Assembly (NCBI RefSeq): GCF_001580015.1 | Contig: NZ_LSZQ01000046.1 | Location: forward strand, 1-64,000 | Direction: 5' to 3' | DNA: 64,000 nt | Source: Cephaloticoccus primus | GTDB lineage: Bacteria; Verrucomicrobiota; Verrucomicrobiia; Opitutales; Opitutaceae | Shown: one piece after another, positions 1 through 64,000 of the stretch | Position numbering within the stretch: the stretch's first letter is position 1 | Layout: every line of letters begins with the position of its first letter | Made by a program: the position numbers and the translations under genes | Notes under the pieces: generated by a model | Told to the model about the DNA's origin: nothing | Seen by the model: the letters and a program-made list of their open reading frames with translations, nothing else | Databases searched by the model: none

Positions 1-213
1 ATGTCCCGATCTTGAGTCGGTGATTTACCGGCAAATCGTTTCATCTTGCCCAAATGGGTACTCGCTCCATCCGCGATTCAGGCTCCTTCCCCTGTCGTGA
101 AACGACAGGGAGGATGTCCCGTTAAATTTGCGATTTTGTTCGGGCGCGCAGCGCACGGGCAAAATCGCAAATTCAATGGAAGTGGCGACACGCCACCGCC
201 CCACGCGGAGTGG
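1..213 (+). repeat. Composite palindromic intergenic element, copy A (left end cut by window)
   Basis: The right part of the element is visible from about position 46. It has a linker, then a hairpin at 90-110 (CCCTGTCGT / ACGACAGGG), then the long hairpin AATTTGCGATTTTG (125-138) / CAAAATCGCAAATT (160-173), then GTGGCG / CGCCAC (182-196), and ends with the terminal motif CCGCCCCACGCGGAGTGG (196-213). It lies just beyond the 3' end of the MFS gene. The M3 hairpin and left terminus expected from other copies lie outside the window. Confidence 0.85.
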
Positions 214-3591: not shown

Positions 3592-3942
3592 CCACTGCGC
3601 GTAGGGCGCGGTCTTCGACCGTTTTATTGAGCGCGGCGTCGCGGTCGCAGACCGGGCCGCTGCGCCAGAACAGCATTTTCCCGTTAACCCAACGAAATCT
3701 GCCTCAACGGGTTTCCCGTCTTATTCGCGCACGGGCTGAGGCACCTTGACGAGTCGCCAACAAGCGGCTCGTCCAATAAAAGGGTCTGCGACCCTCGCAA
3801 CGCGACTGGGGGAAGTTCCGTTAAATTTGGGAATCGGTCCCGTCGCTGCGCGACGGAGCCGATTCCCAAATTGAATGGCACGTGGCGTCCCGCCACCGCT
3901 GCCCGCGCAGGGACACCTCCTCCCACGCGCCACGTGCAGTGG
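3592..3942 (+). repeat. Composite palindromic intergenic element, copy B
   Basis: Fills the gap between the convergent TolC-like and miaA genes. It starts with a degenerate terminus (CCACTGCGCGTAGGG) and contains small hairpins (GGTCTTCGACC; CGGTCGCAGACCG; GGGTCTGCGACCC) and a GAGTCGCCAACAAGCGGCTC module. The long hairpin is type beta: AATTTGGGAATCGG (3824-3837) / CCGATTCCCAAATT (3859-3872) with inner arm CCGTCGC/GCGACGG. It ends with CACGTGGCG/CGCCACCG and terminal sequence CACGTGCAGTGG. There is no M3 hairpin; the region 3661-3747 replaces it. Confidence 0.8.
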
Positions 3943-10304: not shown

Positions 10305-10737
10305 GGAGGGCGGCCCTACGCGGGCAGCGGTGGCGTGGCGCCACGTGCCATTGAATTTGCGATTTTGCCCGTGCGCTACGCGCTCAAGCAAAATCGCAAA
10401 TTTACATGAACTCCCCCCTGTCGCGTTGCGACAGGGAATGAGGCATCAAACGCGACTGGGGGCGTAAACCCATTGGGGCGGATTTTTTTGATTAACGGAT
10501 AAATGTGCAGCACCGGACGAGGCCCAGTGAGGGCCTCGTCAGATAAGTCGGTCAACGACCGCAACCGGAGATCGGGTGTTTCCAACTGTGCCGTTTGTCT
10601 GTTGGCCGGAGCACCCAACAGACAAACGGCACAGTTGAATGGCAGGGGACACACGAGCCGCCAACGGGCGGCTCGCAAAATAAGAGGGTCTGCGACCCCG
10701 CCGCCCGCGCAGGGGAGTCTTCGACTCGTTTATTATG
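10305..10737 (-). repeat. Composite palindromic intergenic element, copy C
   Basis: Inverted relative to copies A, B and E. In plus order it holds GGTGGCG/CGCCACG, the long type-alpha hairpin (AATTTGCGATTTTG / CAAAATCGCAAATT), CCCTGTCGC/GCGACAGGG, a linker with a T7 run, GAGGCCC/GGGCCTC, GGTCAACGACC, and the M3 hairpin at 10584-10636. The M3 outer arms are ACTGTGCCGTTTG / CAAACGGCACAGT. It ends with GAGCCGCC/GGCGGCTC and GGGTCTGCGACCC. It lies between two divergent genes, so it probably overlaps the dinG promoter region. Confidence 0.82.
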
Positions 10738-15750: not shown

Positions 15751-16743
15751 CTACAAGTACTTATCGAGCGGCGGGTGCAGCAGGTCGTGGATTTCGGAAT
15801 CGTCCATATTTTCGGCAGTGATGAGAGTGCAGCCGGTGTCGATGAGCTTGGGCACTTCCTCTCCGCGCAGTTTGGCGACGGCCGTTTTTACGGCCACATA
15901 GCCCATGTTGAGCGGATCCTGGACGATGAGGCCCTGCAAGTCCCCCGCACGCAGTGCAGCGACGGACTGCTTGTCGGTGTCGAAGCCTACGTGCTTTACC
16001 TTGCCACCACCGCGGCCCACGTCGGCGAGTGCGAGGAGTGTTCCCGAAGTGCTGCTGTTGTTGGGCGTGAAGATGCCGTCGATCTGATGGCCGTAGCGGT
16101 TGATCAGGTTTTGGGCAGTGCGATAGGCCGTGTCGCGCGAGGGGCCAGCGTATTGGTCGCTGGATATGACCTCGATCCCGGGGAACTCCTTGATCGTATC
16201 GAGAAAGCCATTTACGCGCCCCTCGACACTCGTGGAGCCGGGCACGACGCGCACGACGACCACCTTCCCCTTTCCATTGAGCAGCTCGGCCAGGCGGCGC
16301 GCCGCGATCACTCCGCCCTGATAATTGTCCGTCGAGGCTTCGCTCACGTACACGTCCTTATCGAGCGTGGAGTCGATAAGGACGACGGGGATTTTCGCGC
16401 GGGTAGCCAGCTCGACCGAAGACACGAGGGCCGTGCCGTCCAGCGGAGCAAGCACGATCGCACTCACGCGGCGGGCCACGAAGTTCTCCATCACCTGGAT
16501 TTGCTGCTCGCGGTCATCCTCGCGAATCGGGCCCTTCCACATGATGTCCACGCGCACGCCCTGCTCGGCGAATTCGCGCTGCGCCTTTACCATGCCTGCA
16601 TTGGCACTTTTCCAATACTCATCGGTGGTGCCTTTGGGGACTCCGGCGATCCGGTAGCGCTCGGGGGCGGCGTGGATCACTGGCAGCAGGAGCGTAGAAA
16701 CGCAGAACGCGAGGAATGCAGCAGCGAGGGATGTTTTTTTCAT
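15751..16743 (-). CDS. Sugar-binding periplasmic protein (RbsB/LacI fold), paralog 1
   Basis: 330 aa with a signal peptide (MKKTSLAAAFLAFCVSTLLLP, cleavage near IHA). The mature sequence is a type I periplasmic binding protein: AGVPKGTTDEYWKS, the VLAPLDGTALV loop, the hinge STDNYQGGVIAARRLAELL, GIFTPNNSS, GFDTDKQSVAALRAG and the terminal LIDTGCTLITAENM. It is very similar, block by block, to the next gene upstream, with equal length. It delivers substrate to the ATPase/permease pair downstream. EYWKS and DIMWKGP near the binding cleft are shared with the paralog, so both may bind the same class of sugar. Confidence 0.92.
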   Translation of the reverse strand: MKKTSLAAAFLAFCVSTLLLPVIHAAPERYRIAGVPKGTTDEYWKSANAGMVKAQREFAEQGVRVDIMWKGPIREDDREQQIQVMENFVARRVSAIVLAPLDGTALVSSVELATRAKIPVVLIDSTLDKDVYVSEASTDNYQGGVIAARRLAELLNGKGKVVVVRVVPGSTSVEGRVNGFLDTIKEFPGIEVISSDQYAGPSRDTAYRTAQNLINRYGHQIDGIFTPNNSSTSGTLLALADVGRGGGKVKHVGFDTDKQSVAALRAGDLQGLIVQDPLNMGYVAVKTAVAKLRGEEVPKLIDTGCTLITAENMDDSEIHDLLHPPLDKYL

Positions 16744-16875: not shown

Positions 16876-17868
16876 TCACAGGTATTCTGAAAGCGGCGGG
16901 TGCAGCAGCGCGTCGACCTCCGGTGCATCCATGTTTTCGGCCGTGACCATCGTGCTGCCCGTGTCGATGACCTTCGGGAGCGGCTCACCGCGCAGCGCGG
17001 CGACGGCGCTTTTCACGCCGAGGTAGCCCATGTTGAGCGGGTCTTGCACGACGAGGCCCTGGATGTCGCCCGCGCGCAGCGCATCGACGAGCTGCGTCGC
17101 CGCATCGAAGCCCACGAGCTTCACGCGCCCGCCGGCCAGCCCCGCATCGCGCAGCGCGAGGAGCATCCCGACGCAGCTCGATTCGTTGGCCGCGAAAACG
17201 CCGTCCACCTCGCGTCCGTAGCGGTTGACCAGGTTTTGCGCCGAGCGGTACGCGGTGTCGCGAGTCGGGCCGCCGTACTGGTCGCTGGAGAGGACGCGCA
17301 TCTCGGGAAACTCCTTGGCAATCGTATCGAGAAAGCCCTGCTCGCGCAGGCCGGTGCCCATCGAGCCTGCGACCACGCGCAGCAAAATAACTTTCCCGCG
17401 ACCGCCAAGCAGCTCGGCCAGGCGGCGCGCGGCGATCACTCCGCCGTTATAATTGTCCGTCGAGGCCGAGCTTACCGGGATGTCTGACTCCAGGCCCGAG
17501 TCCACAAGGACGACCGGGATTTTCGCGCGCGCGGCGAGCTCTACTGGCGGCACGAGTGCGCGCCCATCAAGCGGTGCCAGCACAAGCGCATCGACCCGGC
17601 GGGCGACGAAGTTTTCCACCACCTGGATTTGTTGCTCGCGGTCGTCCTCGCGCAGCGGGCCTTTCCACATGATGTCGATCCTCGTGCCCTGCTCGGCAAA
17701 CTCGCGCTGCGCCTTCACGAGGCCAGCCTGCACCGATTTCCAAAACTCGTGGGAGGTGCCCTTTGGCACGACGGCGATTCGATAGCGGTCTTTCGTCGGC
17801 GCAGCGAACACGCTGGCACACAGCGCGAAGAGACCAAGCAGCAGCAAGGCAGGACGGCGTAGTTTCAT
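16876..17868 (-). CDS. Sugar-binding periplasmic protein (RbsB/LacI fold), paralog 2
   Basis: 330 aa with a signal peptide (LALLLLGLFALCASVFA-type core, cleavage before APTKD). It aligns with paralog 1 over its whole length without evident gaps: PKGTSHEFWKS, DIMWKGPLREDDREQQIQ, STDNYNGGVIAARRLAELL, GFDAATQLVDALRAG, IDTGSTMVTAENMDAPE. Differences lie in the stretches VLAPLDGRALVPPVELA and FAANESSCVGMLLA, which face the binding cleft in this fold, so altered sugar preference is possible. It is the first gene of the operon, with a near-perfect palindrome 95 bp upstream. Confidence 0.92.
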   Translation of the reverse strand: MKLRRPALLLLGLFALCASVFAAPTKDRYRIAVVPKGTSHEFWKSVQAGLVKAQREFAEQGTRIDIMWKGPLREDDREQQIQVVENFVARRVDALVLAPLDGRALVPPVELAARAKIPVVLVDSGLESDIPVSSASTDNYNGGVIAARRLAELLGGRGKVILLRVVAGSMGTGLREQGFLDTIAKEFPEMRVLSSDQYGGPTRDTAYRSAQNLVNRYGREVDGVFAANESSCVGMLLALRDAGLAGGRVKLVGFDAATQLVDALRAGDIQGLVVQDPLNMGYLGVKSAVAALRGEPLPKVIDTGSTMVTAENMDAPEVDALLHPPLSEYL

Positions 17869-31762: not shown

Positions 31763-32172
31763 CCACTGCGCGTGGAGCGGTGGCGGGTCGCCACTTCCAT
31801 TGAATTTGCGATTTTGTCCGTGCGCTTTGCGCCCGCCCTCCCGCCCAAAATCGCAAATTTACATGAATCTCCCCCTGTCGCGTTGCGACACGGTCTTCGA
31901 CCGTTCCATTTTGCGAGCCGCTCGTTGGCGGCTCGTCAGGTACCTCAACCCGTGCGCGAATGAAACGGAAACCCATTGGGGCGAGGTGAGAAAGTTCACG
32001 GGTAAACTCCTAGCCGACCGAAGGTCGGAGGTTCTCTACTGTGCGGTTTGTGCATCGGGCGTCCCGCCCGATGCACAAACCGCACAGTAAATGGATGCAG
32101 GCACCGCCTGCCGCCGCCCGCGTAGGGCCGCCCTCCCGCTCCACGTGCAGTGCGAGTCTTCGACTCTTCTAT
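31763..32172 (-). repeat. Composite palindromic intergenic element, copy D
   Basis: Inverted copy between convergent mntR and the PEP-CTERM gene. Left terminus CCACTGCGCGTGGAGCGG; then GGCG/CGCC, the long type-alpha hairpin (AATTTGCGATTTTG / CAAAATCGCAAATT), CTGTCGCGTTGCGACA, GGTCTTCGACC, GAGCCGC/GCGGCTC, a linker with CCGACC/GGTCGG, and M3 at 32037-32089 (TACTGTGCGGTTTG / CAAACCGCACAGTA, inner stem TGCATCGGGC/GCCCGATGCA). It ends CAGGCACCGCCTG, CCGCCGCCCGCGTAGGGC and CACGTGCAGTGCGAGTC. Confidence 0.85.
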
Positions 32173-35878: not shown

Positions 35879-36230
35879 GGGCGGCCCTGCGCGGGCGGCG
35901 GCAGGCGATGCCTGCTCCCATTTACTGTGCGGTTTGCTCGGCGGGCGGAACGCCCGCCGAGCAAACCGCACAGTAGAATAAACTCCCTGAATGGAGCTCA
36001 GGTGGGAGTTTAACCCGTAAACTTTTTCGCCGCGCCCCAATGGGTTTCCGCTTCATTTGCATTTGAGGCCACATTTCCCAGTCGCAACGCGACTGGGGGG
36101 CAAATTTGGGAATCGTGCTTCGACGCGCAGCGTCGAGGCCGATTCCCAAATTGAATGGCACGTGGCGCCACGCCACCGCCCCACGCGCAGGGGTCTTCGA
36201 CCCTTTCATTTTGCGAGCCGCTCGTTGGTG
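35879..36230 (+). repeat. Composite palindromic intergenic element, copy E
   Basis: Between two divergent genes. The left terminus is the alternative GGCGGCCCTGCGCGGGCGGC form. M3 lies at 35923-35975 (TACTGTGCGGTTTG / CAAACCGCACAGTA, inner CTCGGCGGGCG/CGCCCGCCGAG). Then the linker GGAGCTCAGGTGGGAGTTTAA, M5 as CCCAGTCGC/GCGACTGGG, the long hairpin type beta (AATTTGGGAATCG / CGATTCCCAAATT), GTGGCGCCACGCCAC, CCGCCCCACGCGCAGGGG and outer module GGTCTTCGACC plus GCGAGCCGCTCGTTGG. Confidence 0.85.
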
Positions 36231-36284
36231 CGCCGTCTTCTCTGCCGCTTGCATAATCCGGTGGCACTCGCAGCGTCGCGCGCG

Positions 36285-38010: not shown

Positions 38011-38395
38011 GACGAGGCCCCAACGAGGGCCTCGCTGGATAAAAGAGTCGAAGACTCCACTGCGCGTGGGGCGGCAGGGCGGCCCTACGCGGGCGGCGGC
38101 AGGCGGTGCCTGCTCCCATTTACTGTGCGGTTTGTACATCGGGCGTTCCGCCCGATGCACAAACCACACAGTTGAAAACTTCCGACCTTCGGTCGGGTAG
38201 GAGTTTACCCGTAAACTTTCTCACCTCGCCCCAATGGGTACTCGCTCCATTCGCATTTGATGCCTCGCGTCCTGTCGCGAAGCGACAGGGGGGGAGATCC
38301 TTAAATTTGCGATTTTGTTCGGGCGCAAAGCGCACGTGGCAAAATCGCAAATTGAATGGCACGTGGCGCCACGCCACCGCCCCACGCGGAGTGGG
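38011..38395 (+). repeat. Composite palindromic intergenic element, copy F
   Basis: The most complete copy. Outer module GAGGCCC/GGGCCTC and AGAGTCGAAGACTC precede left terminus CCACTGCGCGTGGGGCGG (38057-38074). An extra GGCGGCCCTACGCGGGCGGC, hairpin CAGGCGGTGCCTG and M3 (38121-38173; TACTGTGCGGTTTG, with the right arm CAAACCACACAGT holding one mismatch) follow. Then CCGACC/GGTCGG, CCTGTCGC/GCGACAGG, the long type-alpha hairpin, GTGGCGCCACGCCAC and right terminus CCGCCCCACGCGGAGTGG (38378-38395). Termini are inverted with one mismatch. Confidence 0.9.
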
Positions 38396-39417: not shown

Positions 39418-39784
39418 CCACTGCGCGTGGGGCGCGGTCGCAGACCGGTCTTATGGCGGTGCCTGCTCCCATTTACTGTGCGGTTTGCTCGGCGGGCGTA
39501 CCGCCCGCCGAGCAAACCGCACAGTAGAAAGGGCCCGACCATTAGTCGGTGATTCAACCCGTCAACTTTTTCGCCGCGCCCAAACGGGCTCCATCTGCAT
39601 TTTGAGTTTCTTCCCAGTCGCAACGCGACTGGGGAAGGTCCCGTTAAATTTGCGATTTTGGGCGGGAGGGCGGGTGCAAAGCGCACGGGCAAAATCGCAA
39701 ATTCAATGGAAGTGGCGACCGACGAGCCGCCAACGAGCGGCTCGCAAAATAAAGGGGTCTGCGACCCCGCCCCACGCGTAGGGG
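39418..39784 (+). repeat. Composite palindromic intergenic element, copy G
   Basis: Left terminus CCACTGCGCGTGGGGCGCGG with CGGTCGCAGACCG inserted. M3 lies at 39474-39526 (TACTGTGCGGTTTG / CAAACCGCACAGTA, inner CTCGGCGGGCG arm), then the GACC/GGTC linker, CCCAGTCGC/GCGACTGGG, and the long type-alpha hairpin with an enlarged loop (GGGCGGGAGGGCGGG). After AAGTGGCGACC comes the outer module GAGCCGCCAACGAGCGGCTC and GGGGTCTGCGACCCC, ending CCGCCCCACGCGTAGGGG. Between two tandem genes. Confidence 0.88.
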
Positions 39785-41540: not shown

Positions 41541-41900
41541 CCACTACGCGTGGGGCGGTGGCGGGTCGCCACTTCCATTGAATTTGCGATTTTGCCGCGT
41601 GCGCTGCGCGCCCGAACAAAATCGCAAATTTACATGAACCTCCCCTGTCGCGTTGCGACAGGACTGGAAGCATCAAATGCGAATGAAGCGGAAAACTCAT
41701 TGGGGGCGGACTTTTTGGGCTAACAGGGAATCCAGCTCCGGACGCGGCGGCAACGACACCCCGCCCGAAAAGCCAGTTGAAGACCCCGACCGAAGGTCGG
41801 GTATCCCTTACTGTGCCGCTTGTTTGTCGGGCAGAAGGCCCGATGAACAAGCGGCACAGTAAATGGGTGCAGGCACCGCCTGCCACCCCACGCGCAGTGG
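41541..41900 (-). repeat. Composite palindromic intergenic element, copy H
   Basis: Inverted copy between tandem minus-strand genes. Left terminus CCACTACGCGTGGGGCGG; GTGGCG/CGCCAC; long type-alpha hairpin; CCTGTCGCGTTGCGACAGG; linker; CCGACC/GGTCGG; M3 at 41809-41861 with changed stem TACTGTGCCGCTTG / CAAGCGGCACAGTA; CAGGCACCGCCTG; right terminus CCACCCCACGCGCAGTGG. Compared with copies D to G the M3 stem carries several base-pair changes made on both arms. Confidence 0.86.
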
Positions 41901-56774: not shown

Positions 56775-56870
56775 GTGGCCGAGCAGCACAGGAAGCCCCT
56801 CGCCACCCTGCAACACTCTTCGAGTGCTCTTGTTATCAAGCGAGCCGCTCACTGGCACTTTAAGGATGAC

Positions 56871-57237
56871 GGCGCACCAACGAGTGCACCGCCAAATAAA
56901 ACCGGTCAACGACCGCCACTGCGCGTGGGGGCGGGAGGCGGTGCCTGCTCCCATTTACTGTGCGGCTTGTTCTGTCGGGCGTTCCGCACAGCACAGCAAG
57001 CCGCACAGTTGAATGAACTCCCTGACCGGAGCTCAGGTGGGAGTTTGACTCGTCAACTTTTTGGACGCGCCCCAAAGGGTTTCCCGTTTCATTCGCGTTT
57101 TGGGATTCCTCCCCTGTCGCGAAGCGACAGGGAGGATGTCCCGTTAAATTTGCGATTTTGTTCGGGCGCGCAGCGCACGGGCAAAATCGCAAATTTAATG
57201 GCACGTGGCGCCACGCCACCGCCCCGCGCGTAGCGGG
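56871..57237 (+). repeat. Composite palindromic intergenic element, copy I
   Basis: Between tandem minus-strand argH and the OsmC gene. Outer part ACCAACGAG and GGTCAACGACC, left terminus CCACTGCGCGTGGGGG, CAGG/CCTG-like hairpin, M3 at 56956-57010 (TACTGTGCGGCTTG / CAAGCCGCACAGT; the inner stem is imperfect), GGAGCTCAGGTGGGAGTTT linker, CCCCTGTCGCGAAGCGACAGGG, the long type-alpha hairpin, GTGGCGCCACGCCAC, and a degenerate right terminus CCGCCCCGCGCGTAGCGGG. Confidence 0.87.
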
Positions 57238-57271
57238 AGTCTTCTGCCTCTTTCATCTGACGAGCAGCGTG

Positions 57272-58790: not shown

Positions 58791-59141
58791 GAGGCCCCAA
58801 CGAGGGCCTCGCACAGAAAAAGAGTCGAAGAGTCCCACTGCGCGTGGGGCGGCAGGCGGTACCTGCACCCATTTACAGTACGGCTTGCTGTCGGGCGTTC
58901 CGCCCGACGAACAAGCCGCACTGTAGAATGAACTCCCTGAACGGAGCTCAGGTGGGAGTTTAACCCGTCAACTTTTTCGCCGCGCCCAAAGGGGTAGCCC
59001 GCATTTGATGCTTCAGCCCCCGTTGCGAAGCAACAGGGGGAGGTCCCGTTAAATTTGCGATTTTGTTCGGGCGCGTAGCGCACGGGCAAAATCGCAAATT
59101 CAATGGCACGTGGCGCCACGCCACCGCCCCACGCGCAGTGG
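58791..59141 (+). repeat. Composite palindromic intergenic element, copy J
   Basis: The best preserved termini: CCACTGCGCGTGGGGCGG (58835-58852) and CCGCCCCACGCGCAGTGG (59124-59141) are exact inverted complements, giving a 307-bp core. Before the core is the outer module GAGGCCC/GGGCCTC and AGAGTCGAAGAGTC. M3 lies at 58874-58925 with changed pairs (TACAGTACGGCTTG / CAAGCCGCACTGTA), then GGAGCTCAGGTGGGAGTTT, CCCCCGTTGC/GCAACAGGGGG and the long type-alpha hairpin. Located between convergent genes. Confidence 0.92.
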
Positions 59142-61865: not shown

Positions 61866-62166
61866 TACTACGCGTGGGGGCGGCAGGTGGTACCTGCACC
61901 CATTTACTGTGCGGTTTGCGTGTTGTGCGTTCCGCACAACACGCAAACCGCACAGTAAGGGATACCCGACCTCCGGTCGGGTCGGAGATTTAACCCGTCA
62001 ACTTTTTCGCCGCGCCCAAATGGGTTCCCGCTCCATCCGCGCTCTGTTGCGAAGCAACAGGGAAGAGTCCTTTAAATTTGGGAATCGGCTCCGTCGCTAC
62101 GCGACGGAGCCGATTCCCAAATTTAAAGGCATGTGGCGCCACGCCACCGCCGCCCGCGTAGGGCAC
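61866..62166 (+). repeat. Composite palindromic intergenic element, copy K
   Basis: Compact 301-bp copy with termini CTACTACGCGTGGGGGCGG and CCGCCGCCCGCGTAGGGC. CAGG/CCTG hairpin, M3 at 61905-61957 (TACTGTGCGGTTTG / CAAACCGCACAGTA with a different inner stem CGTGTTGTGCG/CGCACAACACG), CCGACC/GGTCGG, linker, CTGTTGCGAAGCAACAG, long hairpin type beta (AATTTGGGAATCGGC / GCCGATTCCCAAATT; inner CTCCGTCGC/GCGACGGAG), GTGGCGCCACGCCAC. Ends two bases before the hrpA stop codon. Confidence 0.9.
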
Positions 62167-62167
62167 C

Positions 62168-64000
62168 CTAGCGGCGGAAGAGTTTGTCGAGGGCGGCGAG
62201 GGTTTTCAGCGGCTGTTTTTGCAGAGTTGGGGCTTGGTGAATGGGTCGTTTTGCGGGTGCTGGAGATGCGGCGGTTTCAGGTGTTTTTCCCAAACGCAGG
62301 GCCGCAATTAGTTCATCCAGCTTCTTCGGCGAAACGGGCTCGGCGGTGCCCAGCTCTTGCGCGAAGAGGCTGACGCGGAGCTCCTCCACCAGCCAGCGTA
62401 GGCGATCCACGGCCTCTGCCCGAGCGACGGACGCAGCACTCGCGGAGGCCTTCGCAGCACCAACGCTCACCGAGGTAAAGGGCGCCACAGCTTCCTTCGC
62501 TCCCCTGCCCCCGCGCGCATCCGGCGGCACGTCTTGCGGCACGCTCAGCTCTGCCAAGGCGCGCAAATAAGGCGCGAGTTGGCGGGCGCGCTCGGCATCC
62601 TTTTGCGGATTTTGCCGCCAGCGATCCGCGCGCAAGCGCAGCCCGCGCAGGTAACGCGGAAACTGCGCGAGCTGCGGCCAGGTAACCCGCCGCATAAAGT
62701 CGGGCGGCAGCAAATGCGCGAGGTCGGCGGAGAGACCCGCGTAGGGCGTCGGGTGCACGAGAAGCTCCTGGCGGAGGCGGAGGACTTCCCCGAGCAAGTC
62801 GCAGAGCCGCGGCACGATTCCGCGCAGCTCGGCCTTGGCCTGCGCGAGCGCCGCTGCGAAATTCGCCGCGCTCAAGGCCCCGGCTTTCCCCGCTCGTGCG
62901 GCGTCATCGCCACCACGGCTGGCCGAGCTCACGCGAGCTTCCAATCCGCCGCTGCCTCCGCTGGCGTTGCCCTGCGCAGCGTTTTTGTGTTCCCCAGAAA
63001 GCACTCGCGCGGGATCGCAAACCCAGCGGCGTAGCATCGCTGCGGCGTCTTCCTCAAGAGCAGCGAGCGGGGCCAGTGTGGAGACGAGCGGGCCGAGCTT
63101 TCGCAAATCGCGCAGATCGCGCGCGAGCCAGCCCAGGTCGTGCCGGAGCTGGAGCTCCAGCAAAGCCGCAATGCCGACGCGCGACACGCGCTCGGCCTCG
63201 GCACGCGTTCTAAAAAGCTTGAGCGACACGCGGGTACCGTCGCTGGCGAGGCACAGCCCGGGGTAAGCCATCAAGGGCAGCCCCGAGTCTTCGCCTATCT
63301 GAACCTCGCTCGGGATGTCGCCAAAAGCCCAGTCGGCCTGATCGAGCTTTTCCCAGCGAGCACGGGCGCGGGCCCAAGCTTGATTCACTGCGTGCGAGCC
63401 CGCACGGGCGGCGGCTTCGCCTTGGGCCTGCGCGAGTTTAGCGCGAAGCTCTGCCAATTCGCGGCTGGCGCAGAGCTCGCGTCCCGCCTCGTCGATCACG
63501 CGCACGCGCACGCGCAAGTGCTCAGGCAGCGCCCGCCCGCCCCTACCCTCCCAGATACTTGGCGAGAGATGCAGGCCGAAGCGTTCGTTGAGCTGCGCGG
63601 CAAGCGCGGCGGTGAGCGTCTCGCGCTGCGCGGTGAGGCGAGCGCGTGCGGCAACTTGGGTCGCGAGACTCTTGGCTGTTTCGGAGAGCGGGACGAGTGC
63701 GCGGCGCAGCTCCTTGGGCAGGCCGCGCAGGTAGAACTCCACCTTTTCGCTCAAGTGCCCGGGAATCGCCCAATCGAGCGCGGCTTCGCTCAGCGAATCG
63801 AGCTCGCGCGGGGTGAGATCGAGCGTCACGCCGTCGTCCGCCTGGCCCGGGCGGTAAGCGTAGTTGAGCGCGAGGACGCTGTTTTGCAGCGGCAGCGATT
63901 CGGGGAAAATCGCCGCGCCGCTCTCCGCACTTTCGTCCTCTGGCGGAAGCAAATCCTCCGCGCGCAGTTTTAAAAAATCAGGCTGCGCCCCCGCCCGCTC
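62168..64000 (-). CDS. hrpA: ATP-dependent RNA helicase HrpA, C-terminal part (gene continues beyond the window)
   Basis: At least 610 aa of the C-terminal DUF3418 region: PDFLKLRAEDLLPP, FPESLPLQNSVLALNYAYRPGQADDGVTLDLTPRELDSLSEAALDWAIPGHLSEKVEFYLRGLPKELRRALVP, and the closing KKLDELIAALR...ALDKLFRR. The frame is open to the right window edge, so the helicase domains with the DEAH box are outside. HrpA unwinds mRNA and rescues stalled ribosomes. Ala/Arg-rich inserted stretches are present (for example GGSGGLEARVSSASRGGDD). The 3' end meets repeat copy K. Confidence 0.92.
   Translation of the reverse strand, partial: ERAGAQPDFLKLRAEDLLPPEDESAESGAAIFPESLPLQNSVLALNYAYRPGQADDGVTLDLTPRELDSLSEAALDWAIPGHLSEKVEFYLRGLPKELRRALVPLSETAKSLATQVAARARLTAQRETLTAALAAQLNERFGLHLSPSIWEGRGGRALPEHLRVRVRVIDEAGRELCASRELAELRAKLAQAQGEAAARAGSHAVNQAWARARARWEKLDQADWAFGDIPSEVQIGEDSGLPLMAYPGLCLASDGTRVSLKLFRTRAEAERVSRVGIAALLELQLRHDLGWLARDLRDLRKLGPLVSTLAPLAALEEDAAAMLRRWVCDPARVLSGEHKNAAQGNASGGSGGLEARVSSASRGGDDAARAGKAGALSAANFAAALAQAKAELRGIVPRLCDLLGEVLRLRQELLVHPTPYAGLSADLAHLLPPDFMRRVTWPQLAQFPRYLRGLRLRADRWRQNPQKDAERARQLAPYLRALAELSVPQDVPPDARGGRGAKEAVAPFTSVSVGAAKASASAASVARAEAVDRLRWLVEELRVSLFAQELGTAEPVSPKKLDELIAALRLGKTPETAASPAPAKRPIHQAPTLQKQPLKTLAALDKLFRR

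Follow-up and report, generated by a model that had tools for sequence, protein, structure and literature searches.

What are the hairpin-rich repeats that recur between the genes of Cephaloticoccus primus, and what mobilises so abundant an element when its host genome lacks five common mobiliser families? The question arises from a window of 64,000 nucleotides (contig NZ_LSZQ01000046.1, assembly GCF_001580015.1), in which a preliminary description had listed 11 related intergenic copies of an inverted-end repeat. All 11 places belong to one family by mutual blastn, and each is also found by a profile HMM built from copies in the genome. We call this family the main element.

The listed boundaries need revision. 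Several of them mix two families, because a second repeat, a satellite of ~47 bp, sits inside or against the main element. It is carried or abutted by copies B to G, by copy I and, on its left side, by copy J. Revised coordinates are collected in Table 1. The same window also holds two adjacent 330-aa genes (15751-16743 and 16876-17868), which are apparent paralogues with ~72% DNA identity over several hundred bases.

Table 1. Copies of the main element in the window, with the parts of reference copy J and the associated satellites (window coordinates; the minus-strand copies are C, D and H).
Feature	Position	Strand	Remarks
Copy A	1-213	+	right part only, truncated at the window edge
Copy B	3592-3913	+	rearranged: left end, satellites, right half
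Satellite within copy B	3748-3794	+	
Copy C	10313-10715	-	two satellites (10516-10560, 10652-10698)
Copy D	31763-32128	-	satellite 31891-31937; a further outer end reaches about 32172
Copy E	35884-36193	+	abutting satellite 36191-36237
Copy F	38082-38394	+	satellite 38011-38057; additional outer end to its left
Copy G	39418-39784	+	satellite 39721-39767 takes the place of the right subterminal hairpin's loop side
Copy H	41541-41900	-	
Copy I	56906-57243	+	satellite 56868-56914
Two-hairpin satellite abutting J	58790 to about 58834	+	
Copy J	58835-59141	+	reference copy, 307 bp
J left inverted end	58835-58852	+	mini-hairpin CCAC-TGCGC-GTGG, then GGCGG
J left subterminal hairpin	58852-58866	+	GCAGG..CCTGC; swappable module
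J left long hairpin	58875-58924	+	conserved CCCATTT before it
J M3 hairpin region	58930-58959	+	
J conserved linker	58960-59010	+	TTTAACCCGTCAACTTTTTCGCCGCGCCCAAA...
J M5 hairpin	59017-59040	+	
J right long hairpin	59052-59100	+	AATTTGCGATTTTG...CAAAATCGCAAATT
J right subterminal hairpin	59110-59124	+	GTGGCG..CGCCAC
J right inverted end	59124-59141	-	exact reverse complement of the left end
Copy K	61866-62166	+	adjoins the gene at 62168-63952 at its stop codon

Copy J serves as the reference. It opens with CCACTGCGCGTGGGGCGG and closes with the exact reverse complement, just as its perfectly complementary 18-bp ends had been described. Folded as single-stranded DNA, it reaches -104.3 kcal/mol vs -60.9 +/- 4.4 in dinucleotide shuffles (z = -9.9), and the predicted fold is a clover of hairpins closed by the inverted ends.

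The main element has inverted ends, and its six or seven hairpins keep a constant order. The series runs from a terminal mini-hairpin with GGCGG through the subterminal hairpin, CCCATTT and the left long hairpin to the M3 hairpin. After the conserved linker follow the M5 hairpin, the right long hairpin, AATGG, the subterminal hairpin and the terminal hairpin. The same plan underlies both halves. The ends themselves are small hairpins with a 4-bp stem and the loop TRCGC; the stem bases vary as pairs, and the loop and GGCGG are conserved. The subterminal hairpin occurs with the stems GTGGCG, GTGGTC, GCGGTC, GCAGCG, GCAGGC and GTGGCA. The fixed series of hairpins noted earlier thus holds for the order but not for the individual hairpins, single ones being replaced or expanded by other modules.

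The satellite has two hairpins with the consensus GACGAGCCGCCAACGAGCGGCTCGCAAAATAAAAGGGTCTGCGACCC. Its GACG is invariant, and it shows a loop CAACGA, an A-rich linker and covarying stems, in which 95.0% of cells pair and 52 changes are two-sided vs 17 in shuffles. At least 150 copies are present in C. primus and at least 142 in Cephaloticoccus capnophilus, and its range matches that of the main element in being restricted to the same two genomes. Among the 63 satellites sampled in C. primus, 45 lie in a main element or within 60 bp of one.

The preliminary description had let its proposal hang on the presence of copies elsewhere in the genome, and these are abundant. The end motif of the main element, at up to two mismatches, has 293 matches in the C. 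primus genome (2.36 Mb, 98.8% complete) vs 4 for a reversed control pattern. Sampled stretches of 841 kb contain 79 loci, 44 of them near full length, and 61 loci occur in 719 kb sampled from C. capnophilus CV41, a turtle-ant gut symbiont of the same genus. Extrapolated from these samples, the genome totals would be about 220 and about 180 loci, respectively. In C. primus the main elements are unevenly spread, with near-bare long stretches (e.g. contig C41:31000-105000) beside dense clusters (31-42 kb of the window).

The C. capnophilus version is full-length with the same hairpin order and has ~69% identity to that of C. primus. A short right-right form of ~228 bp is also present there. Outside the ends of the C. 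capnophilus copies lie further recurrent hairpin modules in an onion-like arrangement, so the true border of the mobile unit is uncertain in this species. Two other repeats were observed in the same genome. One, family X, is ~130 bp long with three hairpins (AGTGAAGAACTCCGACC...GGTCGGAG...) and lies at C32:40010-40139 and about nine similar places; the compared stretches of C. primus hold no repeat of that kind. The other, family Y, has inverted ends AGGGTCTGTTCSCGTTTSAAACG (C44:66026-66247 and many element flanks), which often enclose a main element plus outer modules such as GAAAAAGCGTATCAGC.

Cephaloticoccus has two described species in culture. The two carriers are close relatives and live in the guts of turtle ants. 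Among 373 Opitutales genomes, more than two ends at one mismatch are found in two alone, the two Cephaloticoccus carriers (218 and 309 ends). In the 371 others the ends and the structure of the main element are absent, with zero or chance matches only. A covariance model of the right half likewise finds only the two carriers besides chance-level single matches. Weak model matches in six other genomes were examined as possible relatives and set down to chance, those inspected having no diagnostic loop or linker.

The impression of a dispersed, non-coding family with inverted ends and no known match also holds against the collections searched. Rfam 15 covariance models match two tRNAs in the window and nothing else. 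Plasmid and phage collections gave no match to the main element, and a pattern scan of IMG/VR gave 19 contigs with one 18-mer apiece, which we take as chance. In the open-access literature we found no paper on Cephaloticoccus repeats or on REP sequences in Opitutaceae.

The history of the family can be read by comparing the two carriers. In a tree of the 88 full copies the two species separate completely, with reciprocal monophyly at a support of 1.0, and the median identity is 0.63 between species vs 0.75 and 0.84 within them. Among 105 syntenic gaps, the element is only in C. primus in 17, only in C. capnophilus in 5 and in both in 3, although with two species a loss at some of the empty gaps looks the same as an original absence. 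Empty orthologous sites in a close relative, which had been proposed as a check, are therefore found. Copies H and K both face an empty gap in C. capnophilus. The gap orthologous to that of copy F holds a satellite and an end remnant only, and as some other empty gaps also hold a satellite or a remnant, loss contributes. At the C. capnophilus counterpart of the J locus, an element also adjoins the orthologous stop codon, but its orientation relative to the gene is opposite to that of J.

The species-specific clades and the mostly empty orthologous gaps together indicate that the family spread after the species split. The closest pair of copies has 91% identity in C. primus and 97% in C. capnophilus. 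With no near-identical copies, the amplification appears to be post-split but not very recent in C. primus. Target-site duplications, the other trace proposed for checking, are absent at the tested end pairs: in 79 of these (43 + 36), the flanks show no direct repeat of any length from 1 to 10 bp clearly above shuffles.

The search for a mobiliser covered five enzyme families. The C. primus genome has no match to Y1_Tnp (PF01797), RVT_1 (PF00078), DDE_Tnp_1 (IS4-type DDE), rve or DEDD_Tnp_IS110, for which positive controls matched. The reverse transcriptase domain PF00078, to be expected for a retroelement or a group II intron-like element, is absent from C. capnophilus too, and of the two rve-type matches in that genome one scores under the family cut-off. 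Its single Y1 gene lies within an IS605-type tnpA/tnpB element, which was discarded as a mobiliser for having no sequence relation to the repeats. Six of seven other genomes of the genus have Y1 genes, and genomes with more of them are without the family.

No transposase gene was found as cargo between a pair of ends. Two end pairs of 0.8 kb were considered as autonomous copies and dropped, since one holds only a small gene without relation to the family and the other extends into the next gene. Genes with an element on either side were also considered; the recognisable ones look ordinary, and none is a mobiliser. The mobiliser is thus either lost, of another family or never needed.

The stems covary strongly. 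In 28 right halves, 95.3% of cells are paired and 80 are changed on both sides vs 21 in shuffles, while slid controls give 38-42% pairing. Within the species (52 and 36 full copies), stem columns differ from the consensus by 12.0% and 8.8%, and their Watson-Crick pairing is 92% and 97%. Two-sided changes amount to 212 and 136, or 348 in total, counted as cells across copies rather than as independent events.

Such covariation can be maintained at the RNA or at the DNA level, and the mismatches bear on the choice. Selection on an RNA should leave G·U pairs tolerated on the functional strand, which overall neither strand of the main element shows. The counts were made without RNAalifold, since this favours G·U on the folded strand. 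The mismatched stem cells of the main elements comprise 62 G·U vs 76 A·C, or 56 vs 41 without the poorly aligned right long hairpin of C. primus. For comparison, 28 tRNAs of these stretches have 17 vs 3 such cells in their acceptor and T stems (Fisher p = 0.0013). The lack of a G·U excess argues against RNA selection. Single helices differ in this ratio, M5 leaning to G·U, so the comparison is not decisive.

The orientation to tandem genes is random (19:21 and 14:11), and that to GC skew shows no consistent bias (20:32 and 26:19). The loop of the left long hairpin occurs in both orientations, as TTC in 28 cases and as GAA in 7. Inversion of a spacer and homogenisation of arms are given as marks of replication template switching in PMC8604942 (see also PMC8794818). 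Template switching is probably what keeps the arms of the main element matched.

Several known systems resemble the main element. Like REPINs and the GTAG REPs with their RAYT (PMC3116915, PMC3733652), it is non-autonomous and intergenic, and its unit is an inverted hairpin doublet around a spacer in hundreds of copies. Compensatory changes in the spacer hairpin are reported for REPINs too (PMC3116915, PMC3733652). Unlike them, the main element has ~300 bp with six or seven hairpins, variable terminal stems, no conserved GTAG tag and a host genome without RAYT. GTAG occurs only within the loop of the terminal hairpin in its TAC variant (CGCGTAG / CGCGCAG), and no unpaired tag is conserved. Like BIMEs, the main element is an intergenic mosaic of palindromic motifs in combinations; BIMEs are, however, arrays of REP/PU motifs, and its own modules are unrelated hairpins in one fixed order with inverted ends.

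The satellite invites comparison with the CGTC REPs, which have an unpaired CGTC tag, an 8-9-bp stem with A/T first pairs, a loop of 4-5 bases and a CCA tail (PMC3733652). Both are short palindromic repeats that occur in symbionts and have no transposase dedicated to them. In the satellite the stem is likewise 8 bp long, and one strand carries CGTC. Its CGTC is, however, at the opposite end with the CG paired, its loop CAACGA has six bases, its first pairs are invariantly C-G/G-C and it has a second hairpin.

The MITE of the symbiont Cardinium (PMC9769881) also has inverted ends, is short, dispersed and non-coding, and resides in a host-restricted bacterium. The main element differs from MITEs in having no target duplication, ends defined by structure and no parent IS found. 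The mitochondrial GC clusters and double-hairpin elements (PMC4478555) are mobile repeats made of hairpins and analogous rather than homologous, being organellar, of single or double hairpins and unrelated in sequence. REP, CGTC-REP and DDE-type MITE were each tried as identities and rejected: the main element lacks the GTAG tag and the RAYT of REPs as well as the duplication and parent IS of MITEs, and the satellite lacks the CGTC-REP features. The main element is best filed among the interspersed palindromic mosaic elements, for which particular form no published description was found in the open-access literature.

Our main reading, to which we give a probability of roughly one half, is that the main element is a non-autonomous, mobile DNA mosaic defined by structure, a BIME in the broad sense and REPIN-like. 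Each unit is an inverted pair of hairpin-bearing arms around the conserved linker. Copies would have been mobilised in trans, by an enzyme whose target is the folded single strand and not a set sequence at the ends, and the signals may be the terminal and subterminal hairpins plus the conserved unpaired motifs. Recognition of the folded strand is suggested by terminal bases that covary beside loops and linkers that are conserved. As no mobiliser was identified, the transposition step is one that we infer, and the enzyme may now be lost from, or unrecognisable in, the C. primus genome. The arms would be kept complementary mainly by arm-to-arm copying through template switching at replication and by swaps of whole modules, not by selection on an RNA.

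The enzyme may also be left out. The repeats could have spread by template switching or microhomology-mediated copying between hairpins, never with a dedicated transposase, which would fit the absence of the five tested families and of target duplications, the modules nested in hairpins and swapped, and the loops inverted in some copies. We still consider it unlikely: the constant order and ends in ~100 scored copies imply the copying of entire units, not easily achieved over megabases by short template switches, and an enzyme outside the five families would have passed the search. A little less likely again is the broader picture of a selfish DNA defined by its fold instead of its sequence and with no dedicated enzyme, its modules copying, nesting and exchanging through template switching to yield genome-wide families, and its arms co-evolving with no RNA under selection. 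We think it improbable, too, that the repeats are structured RNAs or 3'-UTR regulators, such as bidirectional terminators or mRNA stabilisers, selected copy by copy. The strong paired covariation, the conserved linkers and loops and the closeness to stops (a median of 35-45 bp past the upstream stop in tandem gaps and 9-19 bp from the nearest one in convergent gaps) agree with such a role, but the mismatch counts above, the random orientation to genes and the lack of conservation between the species at most sites speak against it, and convergent gaps show no significant excess once their length is allowed for.

Two transposase-based schemes fare worse. A REPIN system whose RAYT (Y1) transposase was since lost from C. 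primus is quite doubtful. It would account for the intergenic, inverted hairpin pair with its predicted clover fold and hundreds of copies, and most of the related genomes do have Y1 genes; Y1 chemistry is also expected to leave no target duplication. Against it are the missing GTAG tag, the Y1-richer genomes without the family and a sole C. capnophilus Y1 gene that is of the IS605 type and unrelated to the repeats. Least probable of all is a classical MITE, whose terminal inverted repeats would be recognised by the DDE transposase of an IS. Its inverted ends, 300-bp size, dispersal and lack of an ORF all match, but there is no target-site duplication, the ends were not found to enclose a transposase gene, the terminal bases are not conserved but change pairwise, and DDE_Tnp_1, rve and IS110 domains are absent from C. 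primus. The earlier interpretation, a mobile element or a structured RNA or DNA, is thus supported in part: the family is dispersed, non-coding and missing from orthologous sites of a close relative, while the duplications are absent and the RNA alternative is disfavoured.

It is common practice to read paired covariation as proof that an RNA is functional. The main element of the two Cephaloticoccus carriers covaries strongly, with 348 paired changes in 88 copies, yet its lack of G·U intermediates and its species-wise turnover point to a process at the DNA level. Whether template switching gives rise to compensatory changes can thus be tested directly on this family.
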